Positions 23,191 through 60,714 of a stretch of DNA of 64,000 bases are shown here, one piece after another (the stretch's first letter is position 1; the number at the start of each line of letters is the position of its first letter). The notes under the pieces were generated by a model, which was not told the origin of the DNA, did not search any database, and saw only the letters and a program-made list of their open reading frames with translations. The position numbers were made by a program, and so were the translations under genes. The stretch is from assembly GCF_000003815.2 (NCBI RefSeq), contig NC_049984.1:22179175-22243174 (forward strand), read 5' to 3'. Source of the DNA: Branchiostoma floridae. Taxonomy: Eukaryota > Chordata > Leptocardii > Amphioxiformes > Branchiostomatidae.

Positions 23191-23202
23191 AAAGAAACAC
23201 AT

Positions 23203-24166: not shown

Positions 24167-24170
24167 AGGG

Positions 24171-39165: not shown

Positions 39166-39169
39166 ATTT

Positions 39170-40010
39170 TTGGATGCATCAGGGTGCATCAGAGATATGT
39201 AGGATGAATGGGAATGCACAAGGATTCATGAGGGTGCATCAGAGATGTGTAGGATGAATGGGAATGCACAGGGATTCATGAGGGTGCATCAGAGATGTGT
39301 AGGATGAATGGGAATGCACAGCAATGCATGAGGGTGCATCAGAGATTTTTAGGATGAATGGGAATGCACAGGGATGCATCAGGGTGCATCAGAGATAGGT
39401 AGGATGAATGGGGATGCATGAGGGTGCATCAGGGATAGGTAGGATGAATGGGAATGCACAGGGATGCATTAGGGTGCATCAGAGATTTTTAGGATGGATG
39501 AGAATGCATAGGGATGCATAACGGTGCATCAAAGATAGGTAGGATGGATTGGAATGCACAGGGATGCACGCGGGTACATCAGAGATAAGTAGGATGAACC
39601 CTCATGCACAGGGATGCATGAGGGTGCATCGAGATGGGTAGGGTGAATGGGAATGCACAGGGATGCATAAGTGCCGGTGCATCAGAGATAGGTAGGATGA
39701 ATGGGAATGCATAGGCTAGGGATGCATAAGGGTGCATCAGGGATAGGTAGGATGGATGGGAATGCACAGGGATGCATGCGGGTGCATCAGAGATGGGTAG
39801 GATGAATGGGAATGCACGGGGATGCACGAGAGTGCATCAGAGATAGGTAGGATGAATGGGAATGCACAGGGATGCATGAGGGTGCATCGAGATGGGTAGG
39901 ATGAATGGGAATACACAGGGATGCATGAGTGCCGGTGCATCGAGATAGGTAGGATGAATGTTAGTACATAGGGATGTACTAAGGTGCATTAGAGATAAGT
40001 AGGATGAATA
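39170..40010 (+). repeat. 50-bp minisatellite, about 17 copies
   Basis: Unit starts ggtgcatcagagat, then gtaggatgaatgggaatgca, then caggatgcatgag. Copies start about every 50 bp from 39182 to 39983. The minus-strand ORFs (MHPHASLCIPIHPTY-like peptides, 39579-40181) are produced by the repeat. Confidence 0.93.
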
Positions 40011-40059
40011 AGGAAGTGCATAGGAAGTGATGTTGACTACACAGGGTGAAAATGTGTTG

Positions 40060-40485
40060 TGTGTGAGTAAATGCATGGTTAGATGTTTCTGTAGTAATGC
40101 ATGATGACATACCGGACCCAGTTGGCAGGGGAGGATCAGGAAACGTCTTGAAGTATTCTTTCTCCATGTACAGGTTGACAACTATCGAGGATACTGGTGA
40201 ACCCATAGCACAGCCATGCAACTGCTGGTAGTACTGTTCATTGCAGACAAAGTATGTGTATCCCACGCAGAGCTATAAGAGTTCACATATTTGTTCAGTA
40301 GGCTTTTTCTTCTCCCAGAGGAAGTGTCAGACCCAAGGAACTCCTTCTCTTCGGCTACTGCTCCCTTTGATGGTGTGGAGCTGAAAAGGGAGCACCTGTC
40401 GTGAAAGGGATTATCTCGTCCTTTTCAACCCGGATGTCCTTAATCTTGTTTACGAAATCAGTTTGTAGATTCTGTACATGCATTT
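40060..40485 (-). pseudogene. Penelope-like element RT fragment
   Basis: Minus strand: DFVNKIKDIRVEKDEIIPF, then (other frames) VGYTYFVCNEQYYQQLHGCA, MGSPVSSIVVNLYMEKEYF. TYFxFNxxfYxQxxGxAMGSPvSPixANlyME is the Penelope RT core. Frame changes between the blocks and loss of the downstream YxDD block make it dead. Confidence 0.75.
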
Positions 40486-40489
40486 CCAT

Positions 40490-40900
40490 TTTCCACCATT
40501 CATTGACCTTTGTAGATCGTTTTGGAGGATCTGCTCCATGTTGTTGGAGTTCTTGTGACTGTAATAGATTACAGTATCATCTGCGTACATTGAGATATCA
40601 CAAGACTGAAGTCATCCAAGCATGATGTTAACGCAGATGATAAAAAGGAGTGGGCCCAGTATTGATCCCTGAGGCACCCCGTACTTTATATGTCGAAAGC
40701 CAGAGGTTGCTCTGTTGATGTACGTGCAGTGTTTTCTACCTGTGAGATAAGACCAGAACCAGTCAACGTATAGTAACCAGTCAGCGTGGCCTTGTATGCC
40801 GTATCTGGACATCTTCTGGAGAAGGATGGAATGGTCCATGTGTTAATTGCCTTTGACAGGTCAGTAAATACTGCTCCCGTTAGTTCACCGTCGTTCACGG
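40490..40900 (-). pseudogene. LINE RT core fragment (CR1/Jockey type)
   Basis: Minus strand: TDLSKAIN, DHSILLQKMSRYGIQGHAD, YLTGRKHCTYINRATSGF, IKYGVPQGSILGPLLFII, then (shifted) MYADDTVIYYSHKNSNNMEQ at about 40590-40530. The catalytic YADD is kept, but frames are broken. It runs into the Penelope piece at about 40490, so one was inserted into or joined to the other. Confidence 0.75.
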
Positions 40901-40919
40901 CAGATTCACGGCATTCTAA

Positions 40920-43500
40920 TTAAGTTAGTAAGTGTACAGCTGTTTGAGTTATAGGCAGGACAGTTATAAGAATGATATTCATCTTCAACCAATGTTTTGT
41001 AACATGTGTATGTAGTGACATTTGTTGATAGGTTTATTAGGACTCAATGTAATAAATCTGTATCTCTTTGATATTTTATCTGACCCTTACTTCCCTCATG
41101 ACGTAAGGCCTGAGGGCCTGAGGGCCGATTTGAGCTTCTCATGAATAAAAAAAAGGTTCAAAGAAAAGAAAACAAACAAAAAAACACCATCTTGACATTT
41201 TAATGAAATTGACATTGGTTGGCTTGTATATTACGGTGCCGACTTTTTTCTTCTTCCAAGCAGATTCGTAATTGGTGACTACGTATTAATAAAAGGTAAT
41301 TTACCAACGTTCGATGTCAGTTTTGATTTGAGAATAAGTTTATAGTTTGTTGCAACTCCCTGGTCGCCAACCAGAAAGAAATGTGTCCTTTTTGCAATAT
41401 GTTGAGTGTTTAGCATCGACGACAGGGTTTAACCAAAATTTTGGCAAGCCTGTCCAAAATATCTTAAACATGGACAATCCAATGTTCTTGTACATCTTGT
41501 GTGTCATATGCTTCCTTTACAATTCTATTGTCTGGTAGGGTATTTTGTCTAAGTCAATATTTAATAAGGTGTCTTTTAGTGTCAGTATATAATTCCCAGT
41601 TTACCTCTTATGAAGGCGTTCACAAGGCCTCTTGGGACACTGCAAGATAGACAAAGAGGAGCTGAATGNNNNNNNNNNNNNNNNNNNNNNNNNNNNNNNN
41701 NNNNNNNNNNNNNNNNNNNNNNNNNNNNNNNNNNNNNNNNNNNNNNNNNNNNNNNNNNNNNNNNNNNNAGGCGGCCTGTGTGGTAGTGCTTCAGCGTGGG
41801 GCGGAAAGATCGAAGGTAGGGCGATTTTGTGCACTTGTGGATGTACAGTTACATAAAGATACACGGGTTGACATGGATGTGTGTACATATGGATATCATT
41901 TTCTCGGCCTTAACAAGGCATGGGTGGTGGGTAGCCGATTTTCTGTATTTCGTAAGGAATTCCGAGTTATCATTTCGTAGCGAGGCCACCAAATTTTGCG
42001 TAATGGCCTTACTGGATCCGGACCCTATTAATACGTCAGGGATCGTCTGAGTTCAGCGTGTAGTGTCACTGGGGTCCCAATACAGAATTTACACAACCCT
42101 AGAAGATACTACCAGGAGGTCAGGCTAACCATGCTGTGTTGAATGACGACATGTAACACCGAAAGTGCAGGTCAAAAGGACACAAGAGGATTTGCATTTT
42201 CCGTAAGGCACAGGCAGCCAATTTTGACTTCCTGTAAGGTAATGTATATTGATTTGATCATATCGATGACATAGAGGCTTTAGAGGCTTTATTTCGTCCA
42301 TTAGCAGAGAGATATAAACATTTTTCAATGCTAGTCTTCCTGGACTTAAAATCCCTAGGCCCTTCAATTTTTGGTTGTTTCAATCATACTGCAAATCGTG
42401 CAATCAAAATTCCAACGTTAATTCCAAGGTCAAAGAAGATGTGATAGAACAAAAATCACGAATCTGTTCAGTTTACCATACGCTGTTGTGTATACATTTG
42501 TTCCACCTTCCTGGCCCCTTAAAGTCCTCCATAATGAAGGCAACTTTTTTGCCAAACTTCTTTTATTTGCACAGTTTGGGGTTCCCAGAGGATGTCATTT
42601 ATATAATCAAATGGCCTATTACGGTGGTTTTTCTTAGCGGGGTGACCAAATTGAGTAATTGCCTCCCCAGATTTCGTAGCGGAGAGAGACCAATTTTTGC
42701 CTAATTGTCTTTCTGGATTTCAACGCAATTAAAGCTTTGTGAGGAAACCCCATGCAGAGCATGACATGCCTTACAGCAGTCAATGATGACAAAGTATTTC
42801 TCTACGGGCTAAAATAACTGCCTACAACAAAACACAATTTTTAAAACAAACACTAATTCACACAAAGCACACTATATATTCCCGTCAGGTATACGGTCAT
42901 AATGAGATACCCACGTCCAAAACTCAATCCACAAAAAAGAACACATACACACTGCAAACACTACACAAATGTTCACACACATACACACACACACCACACA
43001 TACATTGAATAAATGCGCTAAATTGCCTATGTTAATCTCAACTGTACGTTAAATATACAACAATGCTTTTGAATCAATGCTTTTGAATCAAGTTTTAAAT
43101 TGTCATTCAACACAATAATTTTCTCACCTTGAATTTTCGGTCGCTCATCCGTCGACCTTCGTCAGGAGTGGTGATTTAATTACTCTGAGCACGTGACCTA
43201 GGGGCACATGACTCAAGTTAAGAATAGCAAATACCTGGAAAGTGGTACCGGCCCCCGTCTCTGGTAAGTGTCGTCTGGTGTGCTCTTATCCGGATATCCG
43301 GACAGATTGAATTGATCTGAAGAACGGAGAAGAAACCCTTCACTTTTTTTATAAGGGTTGTCTTTTACGTGCTTGAGGTGTGTCTCTACACAACACGGAA
43401 AGTAAATTATGTTTGTCTTTACATGTATGTGATGTTAATGCGAAATGTGATGAACGTCGTGTTAAGTGCTGCTGCACCCACCCCAAGTACATGTTCTGGG
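40920..43500. other. intergenic, no gene recognised
   Basis: Contains a 100-N gap (41669-41768), an AC-rich stretch (42930-43000) and a loosely repeated GGTAGCCGATTTT/GGTGACCAAATT theme (41930-42720). The 500 bp before 43528 would be the distal 5' region of the RTK gene. Confidence 0.4.
41669..41768. other. assembly gap, 100 N
   Basis: Fixed-size gap; neighbouring frames with X residues are meaningless. Confidence 0.99.
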
Positions 43501-43527
43501 TAAACATCGTTAATTATCAAAGATGCC

Positions 43528-43740
43528 TCCTGCTCGAGTCCTGTTCGGCATATCCAGGACGTGTCCTCCTGCTCGGGCCGTATTCTGGATATCCAGGACG
43601 CGTTCTCATGCTCGGACCGTGTCCTGGATATCCAGGACGTATTCTCCTTCTTTGGCCGTGTTCTGGATACACAGGAAGTGTCCTGCTGCTTGGGCCGTGT
43701 TCTGGATATCTAGGAAGGGTTCTAATGCTCGGCCATTTTA
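43528..43740 (+). repeat. 39-bp tandem repeat, about 5.5 copies, upstream of the RTK start
   Basis: Unit ggatatccaggacgtgtcct then ctgctcgggccgtgttct. Because 39 is a multiple of three, frames stay open on both strands (13-residue peptide repeat YPGRVLLLGP...), but codon choice and flanks do not support a gene. Confidence 0.9.
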
Positions 43741-43971
43741 TGCCGTGTAGTGATTCTTGCGTATCCGATAAGATTGAAAATCTTATGTTTTTGAATAGTG
43801 ATTCGTGCGTATCCCATACATTTCTTACGAATTTGATATAAAAATTCGGATTCGAGCAAGTGCTTACGCAACCCTGCATGCCTTTTTGATATCATTATTT
43901 AATTATAAGTCCCAAGGGCAATATATGAGCAATATCATGTTATTATGGTTTTATTGCCCAGCAGCAGCAGC

Positions 43972-45556
43972 ATGCAGCGGGGCCGTGTGACGTGCCGAGC
44001 TGCTGCAGTCAGTGTCCTCGGTCTCCTGTGGGTCGTCACGGCTGTCTTCATCTGCCCAGAGACATGTGATTGCCGATCTAACGGGGAGGTTGACTGTAAC
44101 GGACGGGGATTCAAAGACGCTCCCGTTAACATACCATTGGGTTCAAGTATTCTCCGCCTGGGAGACAATCGCATACAGAACCTGTCTGATACGGATTTCT
44201 CCTACCTAACTAACCTGGAGGAGCATTATTTGCACAACAACGACATCCGCGTTCTCCCTAGCGGAGTTTTCTCCCACCTCACTAGCCTGACGTTGCTTGA
44301 TCTGAGCAACAACGATATCCGCTTTCTCCGTATTGGGGTTTTCTCCAACCTCACCAGCTTGGAGAGGCTTGATCTGAGCAACAACGACATCCGCGTTCTC
44401 CCAACTGGGGTTTTCTCCAACCTCTCCAGCTTGGAGAGGCTTGATCTGAGCAACAACGACATCCGCGTTCTCCCAACTGGGGTTTTCTCCAACCTCACCA
44501 GCCTGGAAGAGCTTAATCTGGACAACAACAACATCCGCGTTCTCCCTACTGGGGTTTTCTCCAACCTTGGCAGCCTGAAGAGGCTTTATCTAAGCTTCAA
44601 CAACATCCGCGTTCTTCCTGGCGGAGTATTCTCACATTTCACCCGCCTAAGAGGGCTGTTTCTATCAGATAATAATATAGCTGACCTTCCAGATGGAGTG
44701 TTCTCAAATCTGACCAGTTTGACACATCTTGACTTGCGCAGCAATAACATCCCGAGTCTGCCCACAGGGGTGTTCTCCCAGCTCACCCGTCTGACGATCC
44801 TGTGGCTAGATGAAAATCATATAGCTCACCTTCCTAATGGCGTATTCTCAAACCTGATCAGTCTGGAGCGGCTTTACCTTTACAAGAATAACATCTCGAG
44901 TCTGCCCATTGGAGTTTTCTCACATCTCACCCGTCTTATTACGCTCTATCTATTTGACAATCATATAGCTGAGCTCCCAGATGGAGTGTTCTCACAACTG
45001 ACCAGTTTGGAATTGCTTCGCTTGAAGGACAACAACATCTCGAGTCTGCCCGCTGGTGTGTTCTCAAACCTTACCTGTGTGGTAGAGCTTGATCTGGACA
45101 ACAATAACATCTCGACTTTGCCCACTGGATTATTCTCAAATCTTAACCGTCTGACGGGACTGTCACTATCTGGTAATCATATAGCTGAGATCCCAGATGG
45201 AGTATTCTCTAATCTGACCAGTTTGGAATGGCTTCACTTGGGCAACAATAACATTTCGAGTCTTCCCACTGGAGTGTTCTCGCATCTCAACAGTCTTCTG
45301 TTGTTTAAATCCCTTTACATAGCCAGAAACCCATGGAGGTGTGACTGTGGTCTACATGGTCTGATGACTTCGGCACGTCTGCGCACTCTAATTTCCGATG
45401 ACCCTACCTGCAGTTCCCCTCCCCACATGAAAGGCGACGCGTTGTCATCTGTTGTGGCAGACACGGTTCGTCGCCGCAGTGGGGACTGCGCTTCGGGACG
45501 CGCTGAGGGCATTTGTTCTTGCACCATCGGCTGGACTGGCCTATACTGCGATAAAG
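43972..45556 (+). CDS. RTK exon 1: signal peptide, LRRNT, 16 LRRs, LRRCT, EGF-like start
   Basis: I prefer the ATG at 43972 to the one at 43945: it gives MQRGRV, then a hydrophobic core ([17 protein letters not shown]) ending at the LRRNT ([15 protein letters not shown], residues 28-42). Sixteen 24-residue typical LRRs (LxxLxLxxNxIxxLPxGVFSxLxx) span about 58-445. LRRCT starts NPWRCDCGL and has the four-Cys pattern up to about 505. The exon ends [13 protein letters not shown], the last half of an EGF-like domain, at donor aaaggtaagatg, phase 1. LRRs 4 and 5 are almost identical in DNA. The long LRR series without introns is typical of Slit/Toll/Trk-like LRR exons. Confidence 0.88.
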
Positions 45557-48500
45557 GTAAGATGTTTGTTTGTATTCTTAAAACGGTTTCAAGAAGACCT
45601 CAGCAAAGTGGTTAAAACAAAAAAATCACGTTTATGGGATAAGGGCAGTTTGGATTAAGTGCCTAAACTGAAAAATTCCAAAAAGGCTTTTATTGCGTAG
45701 TCTTAGTTTTGGCCTCATCGCCCTCAATCATTATAGCTATGCTCTGATTTCTTCATTGTTAGACAATCCTGTTGACAGCAGGATTGTTGGTGAAATGTGC
45801 CCCCCCACCTCCCCACCCCCCTGTAGACTATTTGACATGCAGTAGTTTCTAGCCAGGACCCATTAAATAGCTGACATGACTAGGCAATAACTGTCCAGGT
45901 GCGAGCAATTCGCACCCTTGCTTATCATGTAAATGTCGTGAGCTAAAACCAAGCAGGCATATATTGTTCGTCATTTTGCGCCGTGTGAGACTTTTACATG
46001 TTCACAAACAGCTGGTGTATACTATTAGTTTAAAAAAGGTTAATTTTTAGGAAAAGAGACGTCTATGATGACCCGATGTACAACGGCTGTAATAAGTTGT
46101 CAAATATATGCGTTATGTACTGAAATCGTGTTGACTGTGATTCCTCAGTCCGTTCTTCTATTCTATATACATGTAACTAGCACTTGAATGGACCACCTCA
46201 AAAAATATGTCCTTTGTAATGTATTGCTGCTATCTAACAGTCAGTAATCGACGGACAATAGGTGCGAAATATTCTTCCCAGCCCTCGCGAGCCACCAGTT
46301 TAGTGCTAATTAGTTACTCTGCATCCGAAAGAACCGACATCATGGGCGTTGATCTCGCTTCAAATCTAGTTCATGTCATTCAGAGATGCTCCCCCCACAC
46401 AAAGACTTCCTTGCATTCCTTGGCGATTTCGGTAATGCGGTCTTGTCGCTGAATGACCCCGATAACGGTCCGATTAGATAATAGATAATAGATAAATTAA
46501 AAGTAACAACGGAGAAATAAAAAGAAAAATGCACAAGAAATACATCGTCTGGGTGCTATTTTCATAAATGTACCAGGTTTAGATGTGCAATCACCATAGC
46601 TGAGGATAGTATGACATAGTCGACTAGGAACAAATAATCTGTACAAACGCAAACCCTGGCGCCCTACGCGCCCGCCACCATGGCCCATGATGGTCTGCTT
46701 CCCGTTGGATTGGCACCTGTGATTTTCATATTGTATAAATTACCATGGGATAACTTAAAGACGTCACACAACTTTCCCCTAAGGGGATGCTACAGGGATG
46801 CATGTTGAGTGAGTGTATTTTCTTTACAGATTCGAATTCGTGAATTACCCACAAGACACAGCGTGATAAGTGGGCGGCAGAAACCGTTAGTTTAGGGACA
46901 CAACCTAAGTAGCATGTTGGGAGATTGGAACCCAAGACCTCTGGTTCCTAGGTCAAACGCCTTTACCATGACAAAAATTGCAACATGACTCAATATCATA
47001 AGCCACTAGGAGGCCCCAACATTGATCTTAACCCTCGACTCACTCACTCACTCACTCATCATCGCCGCGTATCAGACTTCGCTGAGGCGGGCCGTCATCG
47101 TTCTCCAAGCTTTCTTGTCTGCTGCTGCTCCCTGCACCCCCTCCCATGTGCATCCCATCTCTGCCAGGTCTCGCTCTACTGTTCTTCTCTACGTCATGGC
47201 TTGTCCTCTCCTCTTTCTCCTTCCATCTGGACACCAGCTTAGCACTACTCTGGGGAGTCCCTGTCTTGGGGAGTCTCTGTCTTGACATTCTCACAACATG
47301 CCCTAGCCATCGTATCATCGTAGTTGACCCTCGACGTTCCACCCAGTTACTAAGTATCAAATTGAATGAAAGATCTCTATTGTACATTCATTCCTCGACG
47401 GGCTAGGTACAGATCACTGGTAACAGACAAATGAAGAAAAGCTATACTATTAAATACTGTCTATCTATAGCGCCTTCTCTTATGCCGCTCCAGGTATTCG
47501 GAAATTCTGCAACTCCGAATGAGTGAACTTACAAAAGCACGACACTAACTCTCGCCTACGTATTTGACGAAAATATCTTTAGAATTTCCTGCCTTTGAAG
47601 ACATGTACGCGTATCTACTTGTCGTTACTGTCGGTCATAACCTGGAATCCAGTCTAGTTGTGGTACGGCCTACCGTAGTTAGTGTAGGCTCTCTACGGGA
47701 CCAGTGCAGCTCTCAGCCGCCGATTTAATCATTCACACCCGGTAGCATTTTCCTAGTAGGACTTTGCCCAGTGGGAGTTAATTAATAGGCCACAACTACA
47801 CTCCCACCGTGCAAAACCCCTACCGGGTGTGAAAGATTACCCCGGCGGTGGAAAGACCCTCCTGTCCCGAAGGTAGCCTGACCAATCCACGGTAGACTGG
47901 ATTCCAGGTTATGTCGGTCACTGTTCACTTGCAGAAGATTGGCCTTTGGAAAGAAAGCAACGCAGTACTACTCATCCGAAGGCGTGTGTTATGGGGCCGA
48001 AAATGCTGTGAACGGTCCAAATGATGTGTGCGTTCGAACAGAACGGGAACACCAGCCGTGGTGGAAGGTGGACCTTGCAGATTTGTACACTGTCAGCCGG
48101 GTCACCATTATAGACGCCACCTCCGAATATGGTAAGTTGTTTCTGCACGGAGGGGTTCAGCTACATATACTTGTATCAATGTCATACCTGGGCCGCGATA
48201 ACGTTCCATACAGGTGTTCCGAACCGGGTGATAAAAAGCCGTATCACACAGGCTTCGAAGTTTTACCACACAGGCTTCCATCGAATAATTAGAACATACC
48301 CTGCCGAGTGCGAAGCGGTCGAAAATTCAAATACCTGATAGGGACGTTTGAACATTGCTCTCCCAGGGGCGTCCCAATAACCCCTTCGGTAAATGTGAGA
48401 AAACTCCCAACCCCTTCAACTACTAGCGGTACCACTACGAATACACATGGCAATCAGTATACATTGACGTACCAGACATGACTTCTTTTCATGCAAAATC

Positions 48501-51500
48501 ATAGTTCTCTCCTTTCCTGCTGTGCGAAGTTGTCTGGTTTCTTTACTGAAGGTGGAACATTTCTACGATACCTGCCTGATTTTACAGAGAAGATTTCTAT
48601 TTGTCACAGTGCATTTATTGACTTTTTTTTACAGGAGCTATTTTAATGGTTCGTGTTGGCCAAAACGAGAACTTCACCCAGAATGGCCAATGTGGACAAA
48701 ATTACACCGTTGGGTTGAGGTCAGGGTTGCAGATCAGTGTGGTACGCTGCGCCCCGCCGATGTTCGGCCGTTATGTTTCTGTACAGGCAATACGACCGCC
48801 GTACTGGGAATCCATCGATTTAGTTATGTGCGAGGTCAAGGCCTACGCTACAGGTAACGGACATAGCTCAGATTTTCTATCTCTCTACAGCAGAGAATGA
48901 AGAGTCAGTTTGTAGAGAAAAAATTACCCAGAAACGTTATCAATGTCTTTTACCAAACAAAAACTACTATCATTGCACATGGTACATAGAGAAAAATGAC
49001 CCAGAAACGTTATTCATGTCTTTTACCAAACAAAAACTACTATCATTGCACACGGTACCGTACTCAAGCCACACTACGGGATGGAATAGTAGACATGAGA
49101 CTAATACAGTCAAACCTGTATTAGCGGCCACCTTTGCATAGCGAACAATAAGCCATTGCGGTCATTTTTGTCAGTCCCTTGGATTGCTCCCATTGACCTA
49201 AGCATTAAGAAATAGTCGATAGAGGCCACTCGTCCATAACCTTGTCTTATATCCGTGGATAGTTTCATCAGGTTGGTACGTCACTAAATAAAGATACTTT
49301 TTGTACACAACCAATGCTTTAATCTCACCGACGTTTCGGTGACGTCGGACAGTTTTCTTACGAAGTAGACGAAGCTGTTACATCATTTCACCGTTAATTG
49401 TCATATAGCCAGGTGCGTGGACCAATTAGAAGACCCCGTTCCATGTTGGATATGACGCCGTAACACATAGATTCCGGCCAGCCCGTTGTGCATCGCTCCT
49501 TCTGATAGGACAAAATGAATCGACACCGACACCGGTGTAGATTTGCATCACAGCCCAGACACAATATAAACTTCGGGGCGGGTCATGAACCCTTAATTGA
49601 CAACTGTTATGGATGTTTTACACTCATTTGCGTTTGGGACCGCATTGTAAATATTTTGCATAAAGCTGCCTGTACATATTCAAACACTTTACGTTTTGTG
49701 ACCGCATCTGTACTGTGAGAAGCTACACTGTCCTGCAGTACAATGTGAACCAGTCAGAATTGCCCTGAAAAAGGTGACAGACGATCACCGAAACGTCGGT
49801 GAGAATAAATCATTGGTTGTGTAAAAATGGTCTCTTAATTCAAAATGGATAAAAGTTTTCATTACTATCATCATTTTGCTGCAAACGACAAGTCATATCC
49901 AAGATGCCTGATTCCAATAAGTTTGAAATATAAGAGGAAAGAGACATGTAAACTGCAGAATAGCATAGCATTGCATATTTGACTATTTTGTAAACGATAG
50001 ATGTACTTATAGTGTAGCATAGCCTTAGTTGTTCTGTCTCTCCCACTGACACTGTAAAGATTCTTTGCAGAAACGTTTTATGTAACTACTGCATTTAGCC
50101 CTTATGGGCAAGGACATGGAAATAAAGATCATTGTCATTGATATTGCTGTAAAGAAAATGATAATGAATGAATAATGAACAGACTCATCATTTTCATCCC
50201 AGGGGCCTGCTGCAACAATACAATCAGCATGATGAACGGCCAGATCACTGCTAGTGACGGCTTCTGCTCCGGGAGCAGTATCGAGTTCTCCTGTGACACC
50301 GGATATGAGCGTGTCGGCAGCTCTTTCGCTGTCTGCCGGGACAAAAATTGGGACCGAGAGATTCCGACATGCCAGCGTGTGTTGACGAAGCTGTTTCTTA
50401 TTTCTGTTTTCTTTCCCGTTTTCTGCTATGTACAAAAAAGATTGTACCAACTACGACATACTAAATAAAATCATGGCATTGTAACAAAACTAAACTTTAC
50501 CTAAACAACACTGAAAAGAGTTTGGACATACCGAAATTTCGTTGAAAGTTTGAAATACTTCATTGTTGGTTTGTAAACTTAATTTTGTTTACATAATAAT
50601 AATAATGCCATTTACCAACAGATGGACCTTAATGCTAAAACCATCGTACTGTAAGCATACATTCCAGACAGTATCTTTCTCGACATGAAACGGGATGGTT
50701 GGATGTGTGTATGGTTAGGTTGATGTTTTCGACTTCATGTTAGTTACCTCCATGAAATGTCTAGGAGGTTATATTTTCACTAGCAATTGTCTGTCTGTGT
50801 ACAAGATAACTCAAGAACGGCTGGATGGATCAGTTTCATGCTTTGTGTGTTGGTGGGGTGTGATGAAAGCTGGAAACGATTAGATTTTGGGCTCCCTAGC
50901 GGCTTTCCTTGGTACTGCAGTGCAACTTCCGGGTTTGCTATCTCGTGCTTTGATCAAGCTTTGGTCACGAATTTTGAATATTAGATAGCTCTTGTACTCA
51001 GGAATAAGTGACATAAGTTTGGGCCCCCTAGCAACTAGTTTTGGGATAGCAGCGGCATTTTTGTCAAGTGGATAACTCGAGACGGGAACAACGAATTTTC
51101 GTGATTTTTGGTATGTAGGTACCTTAGACGATATTGTACTAAATAAAATACAAATTATGCAAAATATGAGACATTTGCATAATTAATGAGAATAATCTAT
51201 CATAGCAACTCATTTGCATAAAATTTACAAAAGCTCTAAATATTTCATGGAGGTATGAGGTCACCGAACTCTAGTTTTATATGTTTTCAGGTATCTGTTG
51301 TGACAATACAACCGAAATCATAAACGGACTGGTTAACGCTACCGACGGTTACTGCTTTGGGAACGACATCCAGTTCTCCTGTAATCCTGGGCACGAGCTT
51401 GTTGGCAGGTCTTCAGCCACCTGCGAAGACGACGGAAGCTGGGGAAGAGAACTTCCGACTTGCCGACGTGAGTTACCGAAGTCTCTTTTGCCGTCTACGT

Positions 51501-54500
51501 CTAAAGTTTGTTTGATCTGATCCGCCTATCCAAAACAGCTTCCTCGGCCTCAAATAGAGCTCAGGTAATACTTACCCAAGCTTCCACTAACCAAGTCTAG
51601 GTAATCATTTATGATGGTCCTTGGTGGTACAGCCCAACTTAATAAGTTCGCTTTGTTGCACAATTCGGATAATTGCACGAAATGCACTGGCAAATGGGGT
51701 GTGCAATTAAGCGGCTCCTACTGTACTAGATGGTGTAAATAACAGATTGGAACTGTTGCATCGTAATCTAGATTGCCAGAAGCAAATCAGAAAATTGTAA
51801 TCCCAAATTTTCTGTAGACTAGGGGTGGGTACCGGTACAGAAAATTCAGGTCCGGTTCAGGTCCAGAGGATCAGGTCCGGACTGGACCTAATTGTCTATG
51901 AAAAATAATCTCCAAGCAAATCTTGCCGGCAAAACTCCTTCCCCAGCTTATGATACTATCTTATGCCACCGCAAGATCTGCTTGGAGATTATATGAAAAC
52001 TTGTGAATAGACGATACTCAAAAAATGGTCCATTTCGCTTTCTTATTTGGAGTATTCGACTCCTACTGACGTTTTAAAAATCCTACAAGGCTAAGTGCCT
52101 CTGTAAAATTGACTGTAAAACTTGGTAGAAATGACTATAGACTCTACTCTACTTTGCACTTGTTATTTTCTGTGACCGGTAAGCCCCTAAACAGGTCAAT
52201 GCCTGATCATATAATCTATTCATTTTCCAACAGGTCCAACATCCGGTCAACCAATTTTTTTCAGGCCCGGTTTTTCCTGACCGGTCCAATAAGAAAAACC
52301 GGTTTTGTACCGGTACACCGTTCCGGTACCCACCCCTACTGTAAACCTAAGTATCATATCCTACTAATTTGACGGACCTTGCATCCCTCGTCACTGACAC
52401 CTGACTGAAAAGTTGTTATTGTAGAACATAAAGTACCTACAGAACAGAGCCCCGCGTCCGTCCAAGCCATCGTTGGCAGCACCAGTGCCGGTATCGCCGC
52501 GGCGCTGGTTGTGGCAGCTGTCTGCTTCGTGGTCTTCCTGAGAAAAAGAAGGAGAAGAAGAAGAGAGGACAATCCACAATCTATCGAGGCTGACTTCCTA
52601 CCAGATGATGTAGCAAGTGAGTGAGATTTACTTTAATCAAAGTTGCACCGGAAGACATTTCACCCGTTGCTTGTATCTCTTTTTGTCCTTTTTGTTGCCT
52701 GGCCCTTACCTTTTCCCCATGAACTTAGTGAAAAGTAACTTGTAGGCCGATTGCGGTTGTCATGACACGCAGTTTACGTTGAGGCAAACTTTGCAGGTCA
52801 TATGTATTCAATCTATAAAGGCCCAGATTTAGTTTTGACAACAAATGTATATAACCACGGGATATGTTTTGTGTCATTGTTTCCCTTTATTTACAATCAA
52901 CACTTTGTGAGGATATTGCCGGGAACAAGGGTTTAGAAGAACATGGACTCAGATGTAGATCGGAGGTTGGGGGAGACACTTTTTTGCTGGGGTCCGTTTG
53001 GACCCCAGACGGATTGGTCACGGACTTTCTTTATAGCTTCCACAGTATCGTACCAATCTTCATAAAAACTTGGGAGAAGGTATAGAAGATGTTGACTGAG
53101 AAAGTCACGGAAGGAATTTTTCTTCAGATTAAAAATGTTTAAATGGCACTGCAAAATGTACGCCTGGGGTCCAAACGGACCCCACTCGGGTGTTTGAGGG
53201 TTAAATAGCCACTTAATTTCTGAATCATTATCATATTTGATTGGATAATTTGTGAACTTGTAAATGTTTACGGCATTGGAAAATGATGTATGGGTATCGT
53301 TAAATTCTGTATGAAAAATTATGTATGTCGGTATGGATAAGAAACCATTCTATCAAAGTTCGAGTGTTGCATCTGTACGTATTTGTGCAAATTGAAACAT
53401 ATTCTGGGCCAGAATATGTGATAGATTCTGGAAAGTTCGTAGTTTGAATCTGACAACATCTGACAAAATCGGATTTGAGGTTCTGAACAACGGAATTCGA
53501 TGCTCGGATCTTTTAAGTTTCCACAAAAGATATAGACACAATGTGGTTCCGCATTTTCGGATTTGTCGTAATGAGATTCCGGATATGTCACCGATTTCTT
53601 GTCGGATCAATAAAAAATATAGACAGAATACGGCTCAGTACTGTTGAAATCCGTGTTTTCGGATTTTTTTCGGATTTGAGGTTAAAATAAAGGAATCTCA
53701 TGTTCGAATCTGTTACGGATTCACAAAATAAACAACAAAAAATACGGTTCCATATTTGTCGAAAATTTGCATTTTCAGATTTTGTCGTAAAGCGTTTACG
53801 GATAACCGTGTCCGATGTTCGGATTTGTTACGAATTCCCTTTAGGATCCACTTGCATTCGCCTGTATTCACCCAAAATAGATAGAGAAATGCCCGTACGT
53901 ACGTATTCGCCAGAATTCGAGGTCATTTCGTTCAATGATACAGTAAACTGATTTCATCCCGATGTGTGTTCATGCGCACTGAAAAATGGCTGCCTTTTAA
54001 AACAAGTCCCTTGGGTGAGACATTTTATAGTACGTCGTACTTAAACTCTCTAAGATTAAATAGATAAAGATAAAATTGAAGGGTTTTACAGGCAGGTTAC
54101 ATTACCAGTAGAAGGGTGAAAAGTAAGGTTTCTATTCAGATAATTTGTATCGAAACATTATATATTCTTTTCCCATGTTGTGCAGTGCACAGAAGGAGAA
54201 TGGAGGAGATGGTCCCACTGGTTCCCCCCAGGCCACAGTTCCCGAAGCTCGAGGTCGATCCCAGCCGGGTGACGCTTGGCCAGAGGATCGGCAGCGGGGC
54301 GTTCGGCCTCGTTTACCGGGCAACCCTGACTCGGGACGACAGGACGGAAGACGTCGTCGTAAAAACGGTCAAAGGTTTTGTGCTTATCTTAGTTTATAGT
54401 ACTGTTTTAGATGGGACATGTGTGCATCATACAACAGATTTCAACGCGATTTTAATCGAGATTTGTGCGTGATCTAAACGTAAACGCAACTGGACTTTGA

Positions 54501-57500
54501 TTTTTCGACATCTGTCCGAAGGGTGATGTGACACGAGAGATTGTTATAGAGAGAGTTGTACATGTGTATTACCATATGTGCATGTGCTTGCAAATGTATG
54601 ATTTTCCATTTCTTGTAAGGATTCACAAGTAAATTTCCTCAGTAGATCTTTTCGCATTTGTAACCATTTCTCGGAATTTCCCAATTTTCCTTTACACTTT
54701 TTATACAAGTGTTTTATGCAATCGACGTAATGGTGACAGTCTGTACTCAAGAAAAAATCCAACAGGTTCACACTGCACTGCAGTATAGGTGTCGCTGCCT
54801 AGAGATGCGGGCCCAAACGTCGGTGGAATTTAACACTTCGTTGTGTACAAAACATTATGTAATTCATTTGATCAACTGGGTCAAAGTACGCACGTATGTA
54901 ACCGTTTTTCATTTACAAACTTTCATGCCATTTTGAATGTTCTGCTCTATCCACAGACAACGCCAGTGAGGGCGACAAGCTGGGTTTTCTGGAGGAAATC
55001 CGCTCTGTTGTAGACCTGGGGGCTCATGAGAACCTGTTGGGTCTGATCAACTGCTGCACAGTGGTGAGAGACCATCTGTATCTCATCACGGAGTTCATGC
55101 CATACGGGGACCTGAAAACTTTCTTGAGGAAATGTCGTGAGGTGAGCCAAATTGTTGTTTGAAAGGTAGAGTACGTTTAGTAATCAGCTACACTTTGCAG
55201 ACCATCCAAATCGTTTAGGATGAACATTGAGGCGTCATTTCCAGAGCAACGTCGTTACCATATAACAATTAGGATTTTGTTAAACGTTGTTTACAAATGT
55301 TTCCTAACATGTAGTGATATAGAATATTTTGCTATTCTACAGGAAAAGACTTATGTTGGATGTCAAGACGATATATACAACTTCGAGGTGCTGCATATGT
55401 ATCAAGTAGCCCGGCAGATCGCTAGAGGCATGGTAAGTACCAGGTGCTGCAGGTGTACCAGGTGCCGGATGTTTACCAGGTACTGCAGATGTACCAGGTG
55501 CTGCAGATGTACCAGGTGCTGCAGGTTTCCCATGTGAACCAGGCGCTGCAGGTGAACCCGGCTCTACAAATGTATCAGGTGTACTAGTCGCTGCAGGTGT
55601 ACCAGATACTGCAGGTGTATCCATTGCCGAAGAAGGTTTGCGGTATGGCAAAACTCAACAGGCAACCATCCAAACAACATCAACTATCATAATTCTGCCG
55701 GGTACCTGAAAACCTGAAACAGAAATGTAAAAAAATCCATCATTGGTTGGCTTTCCCATTATTTAAGACATTCTTGAGAAGGTTTCGGATTTCAAGAAAT
55801 GTGATGTCCGTCGTATTACGAGAGCTATTACCAGCACTTTTGGATGATATGAGACTTTTTCCTTCCGCTACCTGGATTCAAGCACAAATAGGCTGGATTT
55901 CAGCTCATATGATGCATGAAATGACCTTTCTGTGGACGTTTCTACCTCAGGCTACATGATATAATATCAAAATAGTCACGATCTTTCTGTGGACGTTCCT
56001 ACTTTGGAATACGGACTTGTGACGAAATAGGATTGCGTAGCGTTACATTTTCGTATTTGTCAGCATGAAGCCGGCATATCATCGTCTATGGTCACTATAT
56101 GTTTACGTGATCGGCAAAATATACGAATTTTTGACTCATTCATATCATACGAATTGTATTTTGGTTGTAATGTGGTCACTGGCGTGTTTGTCAACTTGTA
56201 GTTGGCATAGGAACTATGTGGACGTACCTATTTTAGCCTTTATGATGTAATATAACAAACTAGTCACGAACTTTCTGTCGACGTTCCAATATTAAGCCAT
56301 ACGACGTAATATAACAAAGAAGTCACGACCTTTTTTGGACGTTCAAATATTAGACTATATGATGTAATATAACAGAGAGGTCACGACCTTTCTGCGGACG
56401 TTCCAATGTTAGACTATATGATGTAATATAACAGACTAGTCACGACCTTTCTGTGGACGTTTCTATCTCAGACTATATGATGTAACATAACAGACCAGTC
56501 ACGACTTTCTGTGGCCGCTCCTATTTCAGGATCACATCGCTCGGTTTCGTTACGTCCACGGAGACCTGGCCGCTCGGAACGTCCTGGTCGGGGAACACCT
56601 GATAGTGAAGATTTCCGACTTTGGGCTGGCAGAAGACATCTACAGCCGAGGTTACCGTCGGCAGGATCGCCTCCAAAAGATACCGTGGAAATGGATGGCG
56701 CCGGAGCGGCTGCATGGTGGGGAAACGTACACCGCACAGAGCGACGTGTAAGTGGTGTTATGCTATTATCTACATTAGGGCTGGGTACCGGTGTGACAGC
56801 GATCTCGCCCCCCCCCGCGATCTCGCCCCCCCGGGGGGCGAGATCGCTAGCGTTTTCGCCCCCCTCTGGTGTTTTCGCCCCCCCCCCAATCCCAGCGTTT
56901 TCGCCCCCCCACTAGGGATATCCTTCCCGTTTTCTAGAGTGTTCGGTTGAATCTTAATCCTATTGCTGTGATAATGATTAGCACTGTCTTGTTACCTACT
57001 TTTGTATATATATATATACTTTTGTATATATATACTTTTGTATATATATACTTATATATATAGGGTTTACAAGGGAAATATATATACTTTTGTATATATA
57101 TACTTATATATATATACTTATAGATATATGTATATATACTTTTGTATATATTTACCTACTTTTTTACATAGCCTTAACATACTTAACTTGCAGCTTGTTA
57201 CTGCATATTAATCGAGCTACCTGGAACAATATGGTACTTGGATGTAACGTATATAGTGTGTTACCTGGTATCTATATATACGTGACACCTTAGTATGTTA
57301 AGATGAGATACAGTACCTGTGAAGCCGATCCTACCTGGTTGGGTGCAAGCACACTTTGCATTGAAATAGAACAGATACATTTTTGTTGTGAATTTGTGGT
57401 GACTTTTATTAACATCACGAACGTATATTAACATATGCATATCAACACACCTGTTGCTAAGTTGTAACAAAACTGGTAAATATTTGCCAATCAGCACAGA

Positions 57501-60500
57501 GGTATACACACCTGTCTATGAGTTGAAACAAATTGTGCTGTTCAAAACTAACAGTTTTGACAGTCTCACACTAAACCTGCAGTTCAAAAAATATAGCCTT
57601 CCTGTGCGAAGGTAACAAGCTGCTAGGGGACCCAAACATACACCACTTGCTGTCGGCCCCATGTGCTATCTAACGCTAAAAATTAAAAAGCATGACAACA
57701 GCACGTCCATAACTCGAGATATCCCTATCGGAAGTTCCGCTGCAATAACAAGCCGCTAGGAGGCACAAAATACAGGCGGTCTTGAGTGATGGCGCTTTTC
57801 CACAAATACACACAGAATTCGAAACGCTACCCAAAATATAAAGTGAAACTTCTTGGCGAAGGTAACAATAGGAACAATGCAGTCGTAGATTCGAGCAAAA
57901 CTGCACAGTGCAGTGTGGTGATTAGGGTCTCAGACATGAAGTAAAGATATTGAACGTAGCGTATGGGGTTAACACTTTCCTCTTTGAGCCCAAATTGAGG
58001 ATATTTGCATCATTCTCGGAGCGAACCTAGTATTAAATGTTTGTATCCATTATCTTTAAGATTATTTGTAAACCTTATATAATACTTGTACAGTAACTTT
58101 TATACTTATCATCTTGTAAAAATGATGCGGAATAGAACGTATGGTATACAGAATATTTTGCACAATGGTTCTGTACCTGTGTTTGTTGGTTAGTCTGTCG
58201 ACCAAAATAGCATAATGGATCCTATACTTATATCACGTCAATGGACGTCATTGTTGGCTGACGAAATGATTTCATTCTCAAATATATTTCATAACTAATT
58301 ATTTTTCATAGATAACAACATGTGCTAATTACAGATACATGTATGTAATCTGCTTGTGTCACTGAAACAGAACTTCCTTTTTTTCTTTTTACCTTCACAT
58401 ACCATGATATAAGGGATAAGTGGCATGGGCTTTACGAAATGACATGCAAAAATGCAAATTAGCACATAATGTGCATGATTCAGGAGACGAATATGTAATT
58501 CTAGTGTTTCCATGTTGTGACTTTAATACACGTAATCTATGTAATTTAAAGGTTATGGAAGGTGAAACATATCAGATAATGATTATGAAAATGAGATTCT
58601 GATTTGCATAATTAATGTCAAAGTACAAAAATTCTAAAGTGCAATGTGCAAATTAATTGTGCACCACTATGTATAGATTGTGCAAATGCGCAAGTCATTT
58701 TCTTAATTCAGGACAAAATGTCATCATAAAATGCAGCTAAACGAAAGTATCTGCACACGTGTTAACTTAAACGTGTCAATTACAGCTTCATTTGCATAAT
58801 GAATGAGACTAGATGACACTATAAATCTGCAAGAGCTAAAAATATTTAATGGAGGTATGATGTGATTTGTACGAAGCAAAAGTAATGTAACTTATAGGTT
58901 TATTGGAGATGCAAATCACTAGAAGGATGCAAATCACTGGAATCCCTAGCGATTTCGCCCCAAGGTAGCGCTACGAGAANNNNNNNNNNNNNNNNNNNNN
59001 NNNNNNNNNNNNNNNNNNNNNNNNNNNNNNNNNNNNNNNNNNNNNNNNNNNNNNNNNNNNNNNNNNNNNNNNNNNNNNNNNNNNNNNNNNNNNNNNNNNN
59101 NNNNNNNNNNNNNNNNNNNNNNNNNNNNNNNNNNNNNNNNNNNNNNNNNNNNNNNNNNNNNNNNNNNNNNNNNNNNNNNNNNNNNNNNNNNNNNNNNNNN
59201 NNNNNNNNNNNNNNNNNNNNNNNNNNNNNNNNNNNNNNNNNNNNNNNNNNNNNNNNNNNNNNNNNNNNNNGGGGCGAAATCCCAGAGGGGGGCGAGATGG
59301 GGGGGCGAAATCGCTAGTGATCCTGCCCCGGGGGGGGCGAAAACACTAGTGATTTTGCCCCCGGGGGGGCGATATCACGGGGGGGGCGAGAACGCTGTCA
59401 CACCGGTACAGAAAATTCATATCCAGGACCGGTTTAGGTCCAGAGGATCAGGTCCAGGTTTGGACCTGAACCTGATTCAGTATTGAGAACTTGTGAATGG
59501 AGGATACTCAAAACAATGGTCTATTTCGCAAAAAAGACACCTGTTTTGTGGAGTATTCGACTCCCACTGGCGTTTTAAAATCCTGCAGAGCTAACTGCCT
59601 CTGCCCGAAACGTGTGAATGCCTGATCATATTATCTGTTCATTTTCCAATAGGTCCAACATCCGGTCCACCGATTTTTTTCAGGTCCGTTTTTTCTGGAC
59701 GGGGCCAATAAGAAAAACAGTTTTGTACCGGAATACCGTACCGGTACCCAGCCCAATCTACATGCAATGTAAGAATGATGACCTAGCTATAAGTGTAAAC
59801 TTTCAACACACAAAGCAATAAGTCAGTAGTCTTATCAAAATATGTATCTGCATGTAGTTACCGATCCTGACCTACATTCTAAGCTTTCGGTGGTCTGATA
59901 TCGATGCCGCCTTGCCTCAACAGGTGGTCCTTCGGTGTAGTGCTGTATGAGATATGTACGCTAGGGGGCGATCCTTATCCTGACGTGGCGACATCCAATC
60001 TAAAAGACCACCTGCAGGCTGGATTTAGGATGCTCCAACCTGAAGACTGTCCCTATGCCATGTACGTCTGCTGGTTTCTGCACTCTAATCCCGAGTAATC
60101 GGACAAGTTAGTTTGTTTCTTGTGATGAAAACACATTTAGTAACCGATCAAGTTATCCTGCTCCACAGAAAACATGCACACCGGGGGTAACAGTAGTGTG
60201 TCCTTCTAACATCACAAAACCCACACATAATAGAAAAGGTGGTATCTTTCGTCTTCCACTGTCTTCGAAAAAGGAGTCGAACCCAATAACCCAGGATCTA
60301 GAGTTAACTCTTACTAACTTTAGACTAGAGTAGACACTTGCGATATTGTTTTTACACTGTTTGAATCTTTTATGTTACCTGCAATTAGCCCACGGGCAAG
60401 AATTTGCAATAAACTTTATTGTTGTAAACTGGTAATTCCCTGTGCTTTGCGTTTTGTAAACTTCATCGAGGTTACGAGACAATAACGACTTTATAGAGCT

Positions 60501-60714
60501 TTAGTTCTCTAACGATCGCTAGATATTGCTTGGGTAAGACTTGATAATACAGTTCATATAACGATCGTTGGGGATATCACTTTTCCACAGGTACGACCTG
60601 ATGCTGCAGTGTTGGCGATGGCAACCCACCGAGCGGCCGTCATTCCGCGCACTGGAGGGCAAAATAGACAAGAATCTCGCCTTCTACGGACCCGAGTACG
60701 CTAAAACAGCCTAA
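43972..60714 (+). CDS. mosaic receptor tyrosine kinase: LRR-EGF-F5/8C-CCP-CCP-TM-TK
   Basis: Predicted single-pass receptor tyrosine kinase. I could follow twelve exons: 43972-45556, 47935-48131, 48635-48853, 50203-50376, 51291-51467, 52425-52616, 54186-54374, 54957-55141, 55343-55432, 56530-56747, 59924-60061, 60591-60714. From 47935 on, every junction has GT/AG and matching phase. The LRR exon ends in phase 1 and the next exon starts in phase 2, so at least one small exon (length 1 mod 3) is missing, probably EGF/linker. At least 1,160 residues: signal peptide, LRRNT, 16 LRRs, LRRCT, EGF-like, fucolectin-type F5/8C, two sushi domains, TM helix with a basic stop-transfer ([10 protein letters not shown]), kinase. 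LRR, lectin-like and sushi modules suggest glycan or protein ligands at the cell surface; the ligand is unknown. I know no vertebrate RTK with this order. Alternative: the LRR exon belongs to a separate gene. Confidence 0.8.
45560..47050. other. RTK intron 1, 5' part
   Basis: No confident exon found, although the phase mismatch requires one between 45556 and 47935. 46900-46980 looks like a tRNA-like SINE head on the minus strand (ggttccaatctccc, weak B box). Confidence 0.4.
47052..47387 (-). pseudogene. LINE C-terminal fragment in RTK intron 1
   Basis: Minus strand: [40 protein letters not shown], the RWxGHvlRMxxxRlpkxxx...R.RGRPxxxW block at the end of many non-LTR retrotransposon ORF2 proteins. 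Opposite strand to the host gene. Confidence 0.65.
47638..47911. mobile_element. 274-bp MITE with 9-bp target duplication, 23 bp from an RTK exon
   Basis: TIRs taacctggaatccagtcta and its complement tagactggattccaggtta; perfect direct duplication tgtcggtca at 47629-47637 and 47912-47920. A 9-bp TSD is typical of MULE/MuDR elements. The inner arms (cacccggtag / ctaccgggtg) also pair. Confidence 0.92.
47935..48131 (+). CDS. RTK exon: F5/8C (fucolectin/FTP type), first half
   Basis: Acceptor ttcacttgcag. Reads [26 protein letters not shown] and [20 protein letters not shown], which are the ALxKxatqSS..yg..a..AvDG and PWWxVDL blocks of fucolectin/tachylectin-4-like F5/8C domains that bind fucose-type glycans. 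Starts in phase 2, ends TSEY in phase 1 at ggtaagtt. A MITE ends only 23 bp upstream. Confidence 0.82.
48635..48853 (+). CDS. RTK exon: F5/8C (fucolectin/FTP type), second half
   Basis: Acceptor tttttttacag, phase 1. Reads [39 protein letters not shown] and [12 protein letters not shown]: the RIG.n...N..Cg...., C.pp..GRYVsvq and l.LCEVev closing strand of the domain. Donor caggtaac, phase 1. Confidence 0.85.
48860..49295. other. RTK intron, with a tandem duplication
   Basis: A 75-bp unit (gagaaaaatgacccagaaacg..ttaccaaacaaaaactac) occurs twice, at about 48918-48990 and 48988-49065. Confidence 0.6.
49297..49829. mobile_element. Penelope-like element ends in inverted orientation
   Basis: Both ends carry caccgaaacgtcggtgaga followed by an AAATCATTGGTTGTGTA-type tail, facing outwards (49297-49370 as complement, 49765-49829 direct). 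ACCGAAACGTCGGT palindromes next to terminal repeats are common in Penelope-like elements. No RT frame lies between, so it is non-autonomous or fused. A third, weaker end lies at 54810-54870 (ccaaacgtcggtgga, cgttgtgtacaaaac). Confidence 0.5.
50203..50376 (+). CDS. RTK exon: sushi/CCP domain 1
   Basis: Acceptor catcccag, phase 1 at both ends (symmetric 1-1 module). Reads [20 protein letters not shown], then [18 protein letters not shown] and WDREIPTCQ, the CCP pattern with four Cys and Trp. An unusual CC pair replaces the usual C...P start. Donor c|gtgtgt. Confidence 0.85.
50746..51258. mobile_element. short-TIR repeat element in RTK intron between the CCP exons
   Basis: Starts tacctccatgaaat and ends atttcatggaggta. 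Parts (ggctccctagcggctttcc; gcataattaatgag) recur inverted or diverged at 57690-57790 and 58560-58860, inside the nested element of the later intron, so this is a repeat family. Confidence 0.6.
51291..51467 (+). CDS. RTK exon: sushi/CCP domain 2
   Basis: Acceptor atgttttcag, 1-1 module. Reads [49 protein letters not shown]. It is a paralogue of CCP 1 with the same CC start, so the pair arose by exon duplication. Donor c|gtgagt. Confidence 0.87.
51820..52338. mobile_element. 519-bp hAT-like MITE with 8-bp TSD, complete
   Basis: TIRs taggggtgggtaccggta and its complement; flanks ctgtagac (51812-51819) and ctgtaaac (52339-52346) differ by one base, an 8-bp hAT-type target duplication. Inside, a ggtccggttcaggtcc-type array is enriched near both ends. 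Lies in the intron between CCP 2 and the TM exon. Confidence 0.9.
52425..52616 (+). CDS. RTK exon: transmembrane helix and juxtamembrane
   Basis: Acceptor gttattgtag, phase 1. Reads [20 protein letters not shown] then the span [16 protein letters not shown] and the basic stop [10 protein letters not shown], then a short acidic juxtamembrane ([12 protein letters not shown]). The basic run sets the cytoplasmic side. Donor a|gtgagt. Confidence 0.85.
52985..53204. mobile_element. piggyBac-like terminus with palindromes
   Basis: Two inverted copies of ctggggtccgtttggacccc (52987-53006 and 53164-53183), each itself nearly palindromic. The right side ends ...tgtttgagggTTAA (53201-53204), i.e. TTAACCCTCAAACACC on the other strand, like a piggyBac end at its TTAA target. 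No matching left TTAA end found. Confidence 0.45.
53430..53850 (+). repeat. degenerate tandem repeat around a CGGATTTGT motif
   Basis: The phrases cggatttg, gttccgcattttcggattt and tatagacagaatacgg recur about every 100-130 bp, about three to four diverged copies. Keeps several short ORFs open (53319-53647) without coding character. Confidence 0.5.
54186..54374 (+). CDS. RTK exon: kinase N-lobe (Gly loop, VVVK)
   Basis: Acceptor ttgtgcag, phase 1. Reads [40 protein letters not shown] and EDVVVKTVK. The GxGxxG loop is intact and the lysine of VAxK is present as VVVK. Donor aaag|gttttg has a weak consensus. Confidence 0.88.
54957..55141 (+). CDS. RTK exon: kinase helix C to hinge
   Basis: Acceptor ctatccacag. 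Reads [20 protein letters not shown] (helix C Glu), [20 protein letters not shown] and [20 protein letters not shown]. HxNLLGLxxxCT and the TEFMPYGDL hinge are RTK-like. Phase 1 in, phase 0 out. Confidence 0.9.
55343..55432 (+). CDS. RTK exon: short kinase insert and helix E
   Basis: Ninety bases, phase 0 at both ends: [30 protein letters not shown]. It ends inside the QvArGMxyL motif at donor atg|gtaagt. Confidence 0.88.
55436..55640 (+). repeat. CAGGTGCTGCAGATGTAC minisatellite in RTK intron
   Basis: 12- to 18-bp units (caggtgctgcaggtgtac and variants) starting directly after the donor of the preceding exon. The apparent Cys-Thr-Arg or Pro-Ala-Gly peptides on either strand are repeat artefacts. 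Confidence 0.9.
55920..56529 (+). repeat. 59-bp tandem repeat containing 3' splice-site-like sequence
   Basis: Unit gtcacgacctttctgtggac, gttcctattttag, then actatatgatgtaatataac. AG positions near 56236, 56295, 56353, 56412, 56472 and 56529 are 58-60 bp apart; two earlier copies lie at 55950 and 56007. The last unit supplies the real acceptor (ctatttcag) of the catalytic-loop exon. Confidence 0.88.
56530..56747 (+). CDS. RTK exon: catalytic and activation loops
   Basis: Acceptor cctatttcag. Reads [65 protein letters not shown]. Catalytic Asp, AARN, DFG and APE are kept, but the Arg of HRD is Gly. The activation loop has two Tyr (IYSRGY), where many RTKs have YxxxYY. Ends in phase 2 at gt|gtaagt. 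Confidence 0.92.
57000..57150 (+). repeat. TTTTGTATATATATAC simple repeat
   Basis: Alternating TA runs with tacttttgta units; the predicted Tyr-Ile peptides are artefacts. Confidence 0.9.
58980..59270. other. assembly gap, 291 N
   Basis: N run flanked on both sides by G/C homopolymer-rich subterminal repeats, which probably stopped sequencing. Confidence 0.99.
59924..60061 (+). CDS. RTK exon: kinase C-lobe, subdomains IX-X
   Basis: Acceptor cctcaacag. The split Val codon completes [20 protein letters not shown], then [20 protein letters not shown] and PEDCPYAM. Phase 2 at both ends; donor at|gtacgt. Confidence 0.9.
60591..60714 (+). CDS. RTK last exon: subdomain XI and C-terminus
   Basis: Acceptor ttttccacag. 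Reads [40 protein letters not shown] and TAA at 60712-60714. CWxxxPxxRPxF is the end of tyrosine kinase domains. The C-terminal tail is only about 15 residues and has two Tyr (FYGPEY). Confidence 0.92.

Follow-up and report, generated by a model that had tools for sequence, protein, structure and literature searches.

Microbe sensing in animals proceeds mostly through receptors that borrow their kinases. In plants, the non-RD receptor kinases with leucine-rich repeats (LRRs) couple an LRR ectodomain to a kinase that has lost the arginine of the HRD motif; in RD kinases this arginine normally contacts the activation loop, and non-RD kinases are those without it. In lancelets, D'Aniello et al. 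(2008) reportedly described the expansion of the TIE/FGFR/PDGFR/RET kinase group by duplication and exon shuffling. That work appears in the reference lists of PMC12837073 and PMC2754479, as far as the accessible parts of these papers indicate. The present report concerns a stretch of 64,000 nucleotides of the Branchiostoma floridae genome (C6:22179175-22243174, plus strand; the window, in what follows), where C6 and the other C-numbers designate contigs of the same assembly. Comparison with the rest of the genome makes it highly probable that the window contains one copy of a type I receptor tyrosine kinase that exists in this genome as a multi-copy family, in which an LRR/F5/8C/sushi ectodomain is joined to a kinase with an HGD catalytic loop, and that the window copy itself is frameshifted. 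With the reported expansion this family has in common the kinase group, the lancelet host and a massive duplication, and an expansion of this kinase group in lancelets is probably already known.

The combination of an LRR ectodomain with an FGFR-type kinase has a precedent in ApLRRTK from Aplysia, whose kinase is classed within the FGFR family (PMC4200351). In the accessible part of that report, nine LRRs and a GCC2_GCC3 region are attributed to ApLRRTK, and neither an F5/8C nor a sushi domain is mentioned. The lancelet array has more LRRs, on a kinase whose catalytic loop reads HGD. Trk receptors also link an LRR ectodomain to a receptor tyrosine kinase; unlike them, the lancelet family has no detected Ig domain and its kinase falls outside the clade of TRKA, DDR1 and MUSK. 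DDR receptors share an F5/8C-type domain on a tyrosine kinase, to which the lancelet family adds LRR and sushi domains, and the lancelet kinase is not DDR-like (129 bits with DDR1 vs 198 with TIE2). Canonical FGFRs differ in their Ig-like ectodomain: neither for the window gene nor for its paralogs on C5 and C15 did Pfam find an Ig domain (E 1e-3). The resemblance to plant non-RD LRR receptor kinases is a likeness of working only: the lancelet kinase is an animal kinase of the tyrosine type, and common descent is not implied. In the open-licence literature, no amphioxus report was found that combines receptor tyrosine kinase, leucine-rich repeat and sushi, or tyrosine kinase, leucine-rich repeat and complement control protein. 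Two papers mention Ryk receptor kinases and lack the words sushi, leucine, LRR and fucolectin (PMC6071037, PMC4967905), while the accessible part of another deals with hybrids of TIR, NACHT and caspase domains (PMC2575513). According to PMC8662651, LRR and FA58C domains arose before the kinase motifs of the families tied to them.

The gene model of the window comprises twelve exons, all on the plus strand. Exon 1 (43972-45556) encodes a hydrophobic, signal-like start, the LRR array with its C-terminal cap and the C-terminal half of an EGF domain, and ends in phase 1. The F5/8C domain is divided between exon 2 (47935-48131, first part) and exon 3 (48635-48853, second part), sushi domains 1 and 2 lie in exon 4 (50203-50376) and exon 5 (51291-51467), and exon 6 (52425-52616), which has a match in the paralogs, contributes a hydrophobic, transmembrane (TM) segment followed by a basic stretch. 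The juxtamembrane region, the kinase P-loop and the VVVK lysine are encoded by exon 7 (54186-54374), the N-lobe with the alpha-C glutamate and the hinge by exon 8 (54957-55141), and the segment up to the catalytic loop by exon 9 (55343-55432). Exon 10 (56530-56747) carries the catalytic loop HGDLAARN, DFG, the activation loop and APE, exon 11 (59924-60061) the kinase C-lobe, and exon 12 (60591-60713) the end of this lobe and the stop codon. Between 47935 and 60713 the eleven exons are separated by ten introns in phase, with AG/GT at every intron end and no interrupting stop. Pfam recognizes LRR_8 (E 5.6e-112), PK_Tyr_Ser-Thr (5e-81), Sushi in two stretches (1.5e-18) and F5_F8_type_C_2 (2.7e-07), so that the LRR, F5/8C, two sushi, TM and kinase segments were found where the initial annotation had placed them, the TM and signal segments being read by eye from the translation.

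Two other labels of that annotation had to be narrowed. The proposed EGF domain amounts to a C-terminal half, with 20.6 bits at best against a Pfam cut-off of 27 and below the cut-off of every Pfam EGF model that it touches; the half EGF of the C5 paralog reaches 22.1 bits against a cut-off of 24.3, and a complete six-cysteine EGF above the Pfam cut-off was found in neither gene. The designation as fucolectin-like held for the F5/8C fold and was not supported for sugar binding. The sugar motif of F-type lectins is HX24RXDX4(R/K); in its strict form it occurs in none of the four F5/8C domains tested and in a loose form in one of them (C15), and the label is, as read from these sequences, valid for the fold only.

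The evidence for the architecture comes mainly from paralogs in the same genome. A 633-aa translation was searched against 513,431,437 bases in 431 contigs, with 70 of 1628 candidates scored, and the neighbourhoods of six relatives were read (40 kb around each of five, 13.5 kb around the sixth). Four of the six loci display the order LRR, F5/8C, sushi, TM and kinase: C5 at about 16.40 Mb, C15 at about 1.48 Mb, and C8 at about 24.43 Mb and about 1.51 Mb. These four are the paralogs that have both exons, and in each of them the phase-1 end of the LRR exon is continued in frame by the F5/8C exon. The C5, C15 and C8 (24.43 Mb) models have open frames through to a stop codon (1269, 1003 and 1160 aa, respectively); Pfam confirmed the domains in the first two, while the third has three sushi domains and a catalytic-loop exon whose start was set by hand. 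The features of a type I receptor (signal peptide, ectodomain, one TM and kinase in one frame) are present in these three models and not in the window copy as assembled. From exon 2 onwards the intron phases (1,1,1,1,1,1,0,0,2,2) are the same in the window, C5 and C15, and the C8 (24.43 Mb) string differs by one extra phase-1 sushi exon; an ectodomain built of phase-1 exons is what exon shuffling would leave. The layout of the family would accordingly consist of a signal peptide, an LRR array with C-terminal cap, a half EGF, an F5/8C domain, two or three sushi domains, a TM helix and a kinase of the FGFR/TIE/VEGFR/RET kind. Because four other loci share the exon order and the in-frame junction from LRR to F5/8C, this architecture is, on genomic comparison, real and multi-copy.

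These loci also bear on the proposal that two adjacent genes, one with LRRs and one with F5/8C, sushi and kinase domains, were wrongly joined in the window. The out-of-frame 45556/47935 junction speaks for it, and so does PMC4967905, which argues that lancelet gene models contain many prediction errors and that neighbours have at times been falsely fused, a case with lectin and fn2 being one example. This warning fits the LRR/F5/8C join, but the paralogs answer it at the genome level, given that in four other loci the two parts are likewise adjacent and their junction, at the corresponding intron, is in frame. In addition, exon 2 lacks its own start codon, and a search of 45557-47930, between exons 1 and 2, for a separate phase-2 first exon opening like a signal peptide found none at the thresholds applied; four phase-2 first-exon candidates exist further upstream, at 38000-43971. 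The single-receptor layout of the paralogs makes a pair of transcripts unlikely as the state of the family. On the paralog evidence the two-gene model was rejected, and its chances are regarded as very remote.

Other parts of the genome contain further pieces of the family. Two more partial stretches (10 kb and 8.9 kb) carry sushi, TM and kinase, to which one of the two adds F5/8C; neither has an LRR exon within its limits, and one includes 408 unread bases. Ectodomain matches cluster on C8 at 24.39-25.27 Mb. On C4, F5/8C and sushi matches at about 31.50 Mb precede a second-tier kinase exon at 31.52 Mb by at least 16 kb, and on C14 a sushi match lies about 4 kb before a second-tier kinase exon at 20.62 Mb. 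The kinase-exon search scored 150 of 386 candidates and the ectodomain search 147 of 1574, and therefore the family counts are lower bounds. Apart from these loci, C15:11345259-11352515 was noticed to hold one open frame of 2423 aa in which sushi-like matches are numerous.

In the window copy the join between exons 1 and 2 does not conserve the frame. Exon 1 leaves one base over and exon 2 begins with one lead base, which makes two, so a direct 45556/47935 join shifts the frame and the spliced product meets a stop at residue 554. In agreement with a lesion at this place, the window's exon 2 lacks four bases at its 5' end relative to each of the four paralogs that have both exons. When splice sites were ranked with a simple score among the 1106 GT and 911 AG sites of the region, the exon 1 donor was the best of all GT sites and the exon 2 acceptor ranked 36 of 911, and for this reason poor splice sites do not explain the out-of-frame junction. 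Nor was a bridging exon supported: five candidates of 4-37 nt were found between exons 1 and 2, at the level of chance given a mean of 6.8 in 200 resampled introns. Intron 1 also harbors an insertion resembling a miniature inverted-repeat transposable element (47638-47911, 274 bp). Its terminal inverted repeats measure 19 nt, and it is flanked by target-site duplications of 9 nt (47629-47637 and 47912-47920), the second of which ends 14 nt before exon 2; no further copies were found elsewhere in the window. A rescue of the frame by a downstream acceptor, with the exon starting at 47982 and 47 nt of the F5/8C start lost, is considered improbable. This site has the right phase and, at 4.05, scores above some of the sites on which the paralog models rely (about 3 or lower); the main acceptor, however, reaches 7.15 and agrees with the paralogs, and use of the alternative would remove the beginning of the F5/8C domain.

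The assembled sequence leaves three explanations for the window copy: an allele with a frameshift, a young pseudogene, or an error of assembly. On the window branch, the ratio of nonsynonymous to synonymous substitution (dN/dS) is 0.15-0.30 for the kinase and 0.35-0.43 for the ectodomain with the TM, as coarse pairwise counts under three choices of reference pair, and no second lesion was seen in the twelve exons. The low ratios are as expected if the gene was constrained until recently and, together with the lack of other lesions, point to a break that is recent or polymorphic, or to an error, rather than to an old pseudogene. It is possible, although short of probable, that the difference of four bases stems from a faulty assembly or consensus or belongs to one haplotype, the gene being intact in the animal or in other individuals. 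The ten remaining junctions in phase, the open exons and a dN/dS well under 1 favor this explanation, as does the enrichment of protein tyrosine kinase activity among the dispensable genes of two lancelets described in PMC12373286. Against it, a different lesion in the C8 copy at 1.51 Mb suggests decay of family members: of the five copies with the full architecture three are open and two are broken, with lesions at different places. The claim that the window contains one plus-strand receptor gene is consequently sustained in its architecture, by paralogs of the same genome, and not in the sense that the copy as assembled yields a whole receptor, because of the frameshift.

At the level of the kinase, comparison with eight references gave 198 bits for TIE2, 197 for FGFR1, 195 for VEGFR2, 184 for RET, 164 for MUSK, 161 for TRKA, 131 for EGFR and 129 for DDR1. 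The highest identity among them was to RET (40.0%), and DDR1 was the lowest of the eight (129.2 bits, 32.2% identity). Among the best 60 of 2421 sequence relatives in the PDB, FGFRs came first, with two entries outranking them only through matches in several stretches. In a tree, the seven kinases of the family group together in a single clade (100/100), which lies outside that of TRKA, DDR1 and MUSK (97/98), and the branch from the family to its nearest kinase family lacks resolution. These scores and this tree place the window kinase in the FGFR/TIE/VEGFR/RET group while leaving its exact position within the group undecided, and they uphold the earlier view that it lies outside Trk, DDR and MuSK. 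By alignment, the P-loop, the VAIK-type lysine, the alpha-C glutamate, the HxD aspartate, the RN asparagine, DFG and APE are all present, and the HRD arginine is replaced by glycine. HGD was read in the catalytic exon of all 21 multi-exon loci of the group (the seven family kinases and 14 further loci), and HRD in the other kinase loci, 11 distinct ones, that occur among the first 16 loci of the search. Among the candidates scored, eleven loci stand at no less than 80% for the catalytic exon, and ten further multi-exon loci at 54-68%. Many other kinase matches are long single open frames; those of 900-1000 aa are grouped on C1, C4, C7, C8, C10, C12, C17 and C18, which suggests intronless receptor kinases.

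Several observations weigh against reading the window as a member of this receptor family. The copy is broken as read, its dN/dS is the coarse estimate already mentioned, and three of its splice sites are weak (exon 4 donor, rank 232/1106; exon 6 acceptor, rank 350/911; exon 7 donor, rank 424/1106). All exon joins rest on splice sites, phases and paralogs. Among the paralogs, the start of the first kinase exon is uncertain in the C8 (24.43 Mb) model, and the other C8 locus (C8:1512500-1525999) is frameshifted in sushi 1, its remaining exons being located and not joined. The locus on C18 at about 1.53 Mb (C18:1511000-1550999) consists of LRR, half EGF, a TM-like frame and kinase, with no F5/8C or sushi match and no signal-peptide exon identified there, and it is possibly a simpler or reduced form of the family. 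At C2, about 29.24 Mb (C2:29229000-29268999), a kinase stands with no ectodomain match in the stretch read; it is 92-100% identical to the C5 kinase in five of six matches, the sixth having 67% over a longer stretch, and has the look of a partial duplicate of recent origin. A long-branch warning applies in the tree to EGFR with TRKA, DDR1 and MUSK. Finally, the 21 HGD loci were picked by likeness to an HGD-containing query, hence the 21 of 21 describes a clade and not an unbiased sample.

The length of the LRR exon varies between copies: 1585 nt in the window, 1867 in C5, 1144 in C15 and 1369 in C8. In the window array the G[VL]FS anchor occurs in 15 repeats, of which 14 are complete units of 24 aa. 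Synonymous divergence between adjacent units (pS) ranges from 0 to 1.0; units near the N-terminal end are almost identical, and beyond them a period of two repeats appears. As far as the sequence allows, the array changes by tandem duplication of 72-bp units. The most variable repeat positions are 11, 13, 21, 15 and 16 (2.36-2.81 bits); 11, 13, 15 and 16, but not 21, lie in the strand segment lining the concave side of an LRR solenoid. A fold model of the LRR exon made without an alignment had a mean predicted local distance difference test score (pLDDT) of 68.1 and was not used as evidence.

In the intact copies, the ectodomain would most likely bind a polyvalent ligand, and ligand-induced clustering would allow the kinase to phosphorylate in trans. 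Activation should depend less on phosphorylation of the activation loop, because the catalytic-loop arginine that normally contacts this loop is absent. A window transcript spliced at 45556/47935 would yield only a truncated, secreted LRR protein, as the frameshift at the start of exon 2 leaves nothing else encoded. The likeliest use of the family may be the surface recognition of microbes or other cells, a tentative assignment held at somewhat less than even confidence and suggested by the varied LRR surface, the lectin fold and the sushi domains. A role in development or cell-cell adhesion, with growth signaling as in FGFR or TIE, is a serious possibility that likewise stays a little below an even chance. 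TIE2, FGFR1, VEGFR2 and RET are the nearest of the eight references and FGFRs lead in the PDB, and the Aplysia LRR receptor of FGFR type acts in neurons (PMC4200351); by argument and not by test, the copy number, the decayed copies and the LRR turnover fit recognition of a changing ligand better. A broader reading of the HGD non-RD clade (at least 21 multi-exon loci, with LRR, lectin-fold and sushi ectodomains where read) as a fast-changing recognition repertoire, convergent with the plant non-RD LRR receptor kinases, is judged unlikely. Were recognition the role, LRR, lectin-fold and complement-type modules set on their own tyrosine kinase would provide a direct wire from surface recognition to phosphotyrosine in an invertebrate chordate. 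The absent arginine yields a testable prediction on how these kinases switch on, for which the copies that read as intact are the suitable genes, and not the window copy.

The window contains other features upstream of the receptor gene. On the minus strand, pieces resembling a DIRS-type retrotransposon extend over 21439-25018, with an ALOG-domain match at 21439-21849 (E 1.1e-18) and, at 23203-23973, a frame that looks reverse-transcriptase-like by eye and has no Pfam match. A 290-aa open frame with NHL repeats (E 9.2e-13) lies at 35427-36299 and is perhaps an exon of a TRIM/NHL-type gene, and a tandem array of about 17 copies of a 50-bp unit occupies 39172-40009.

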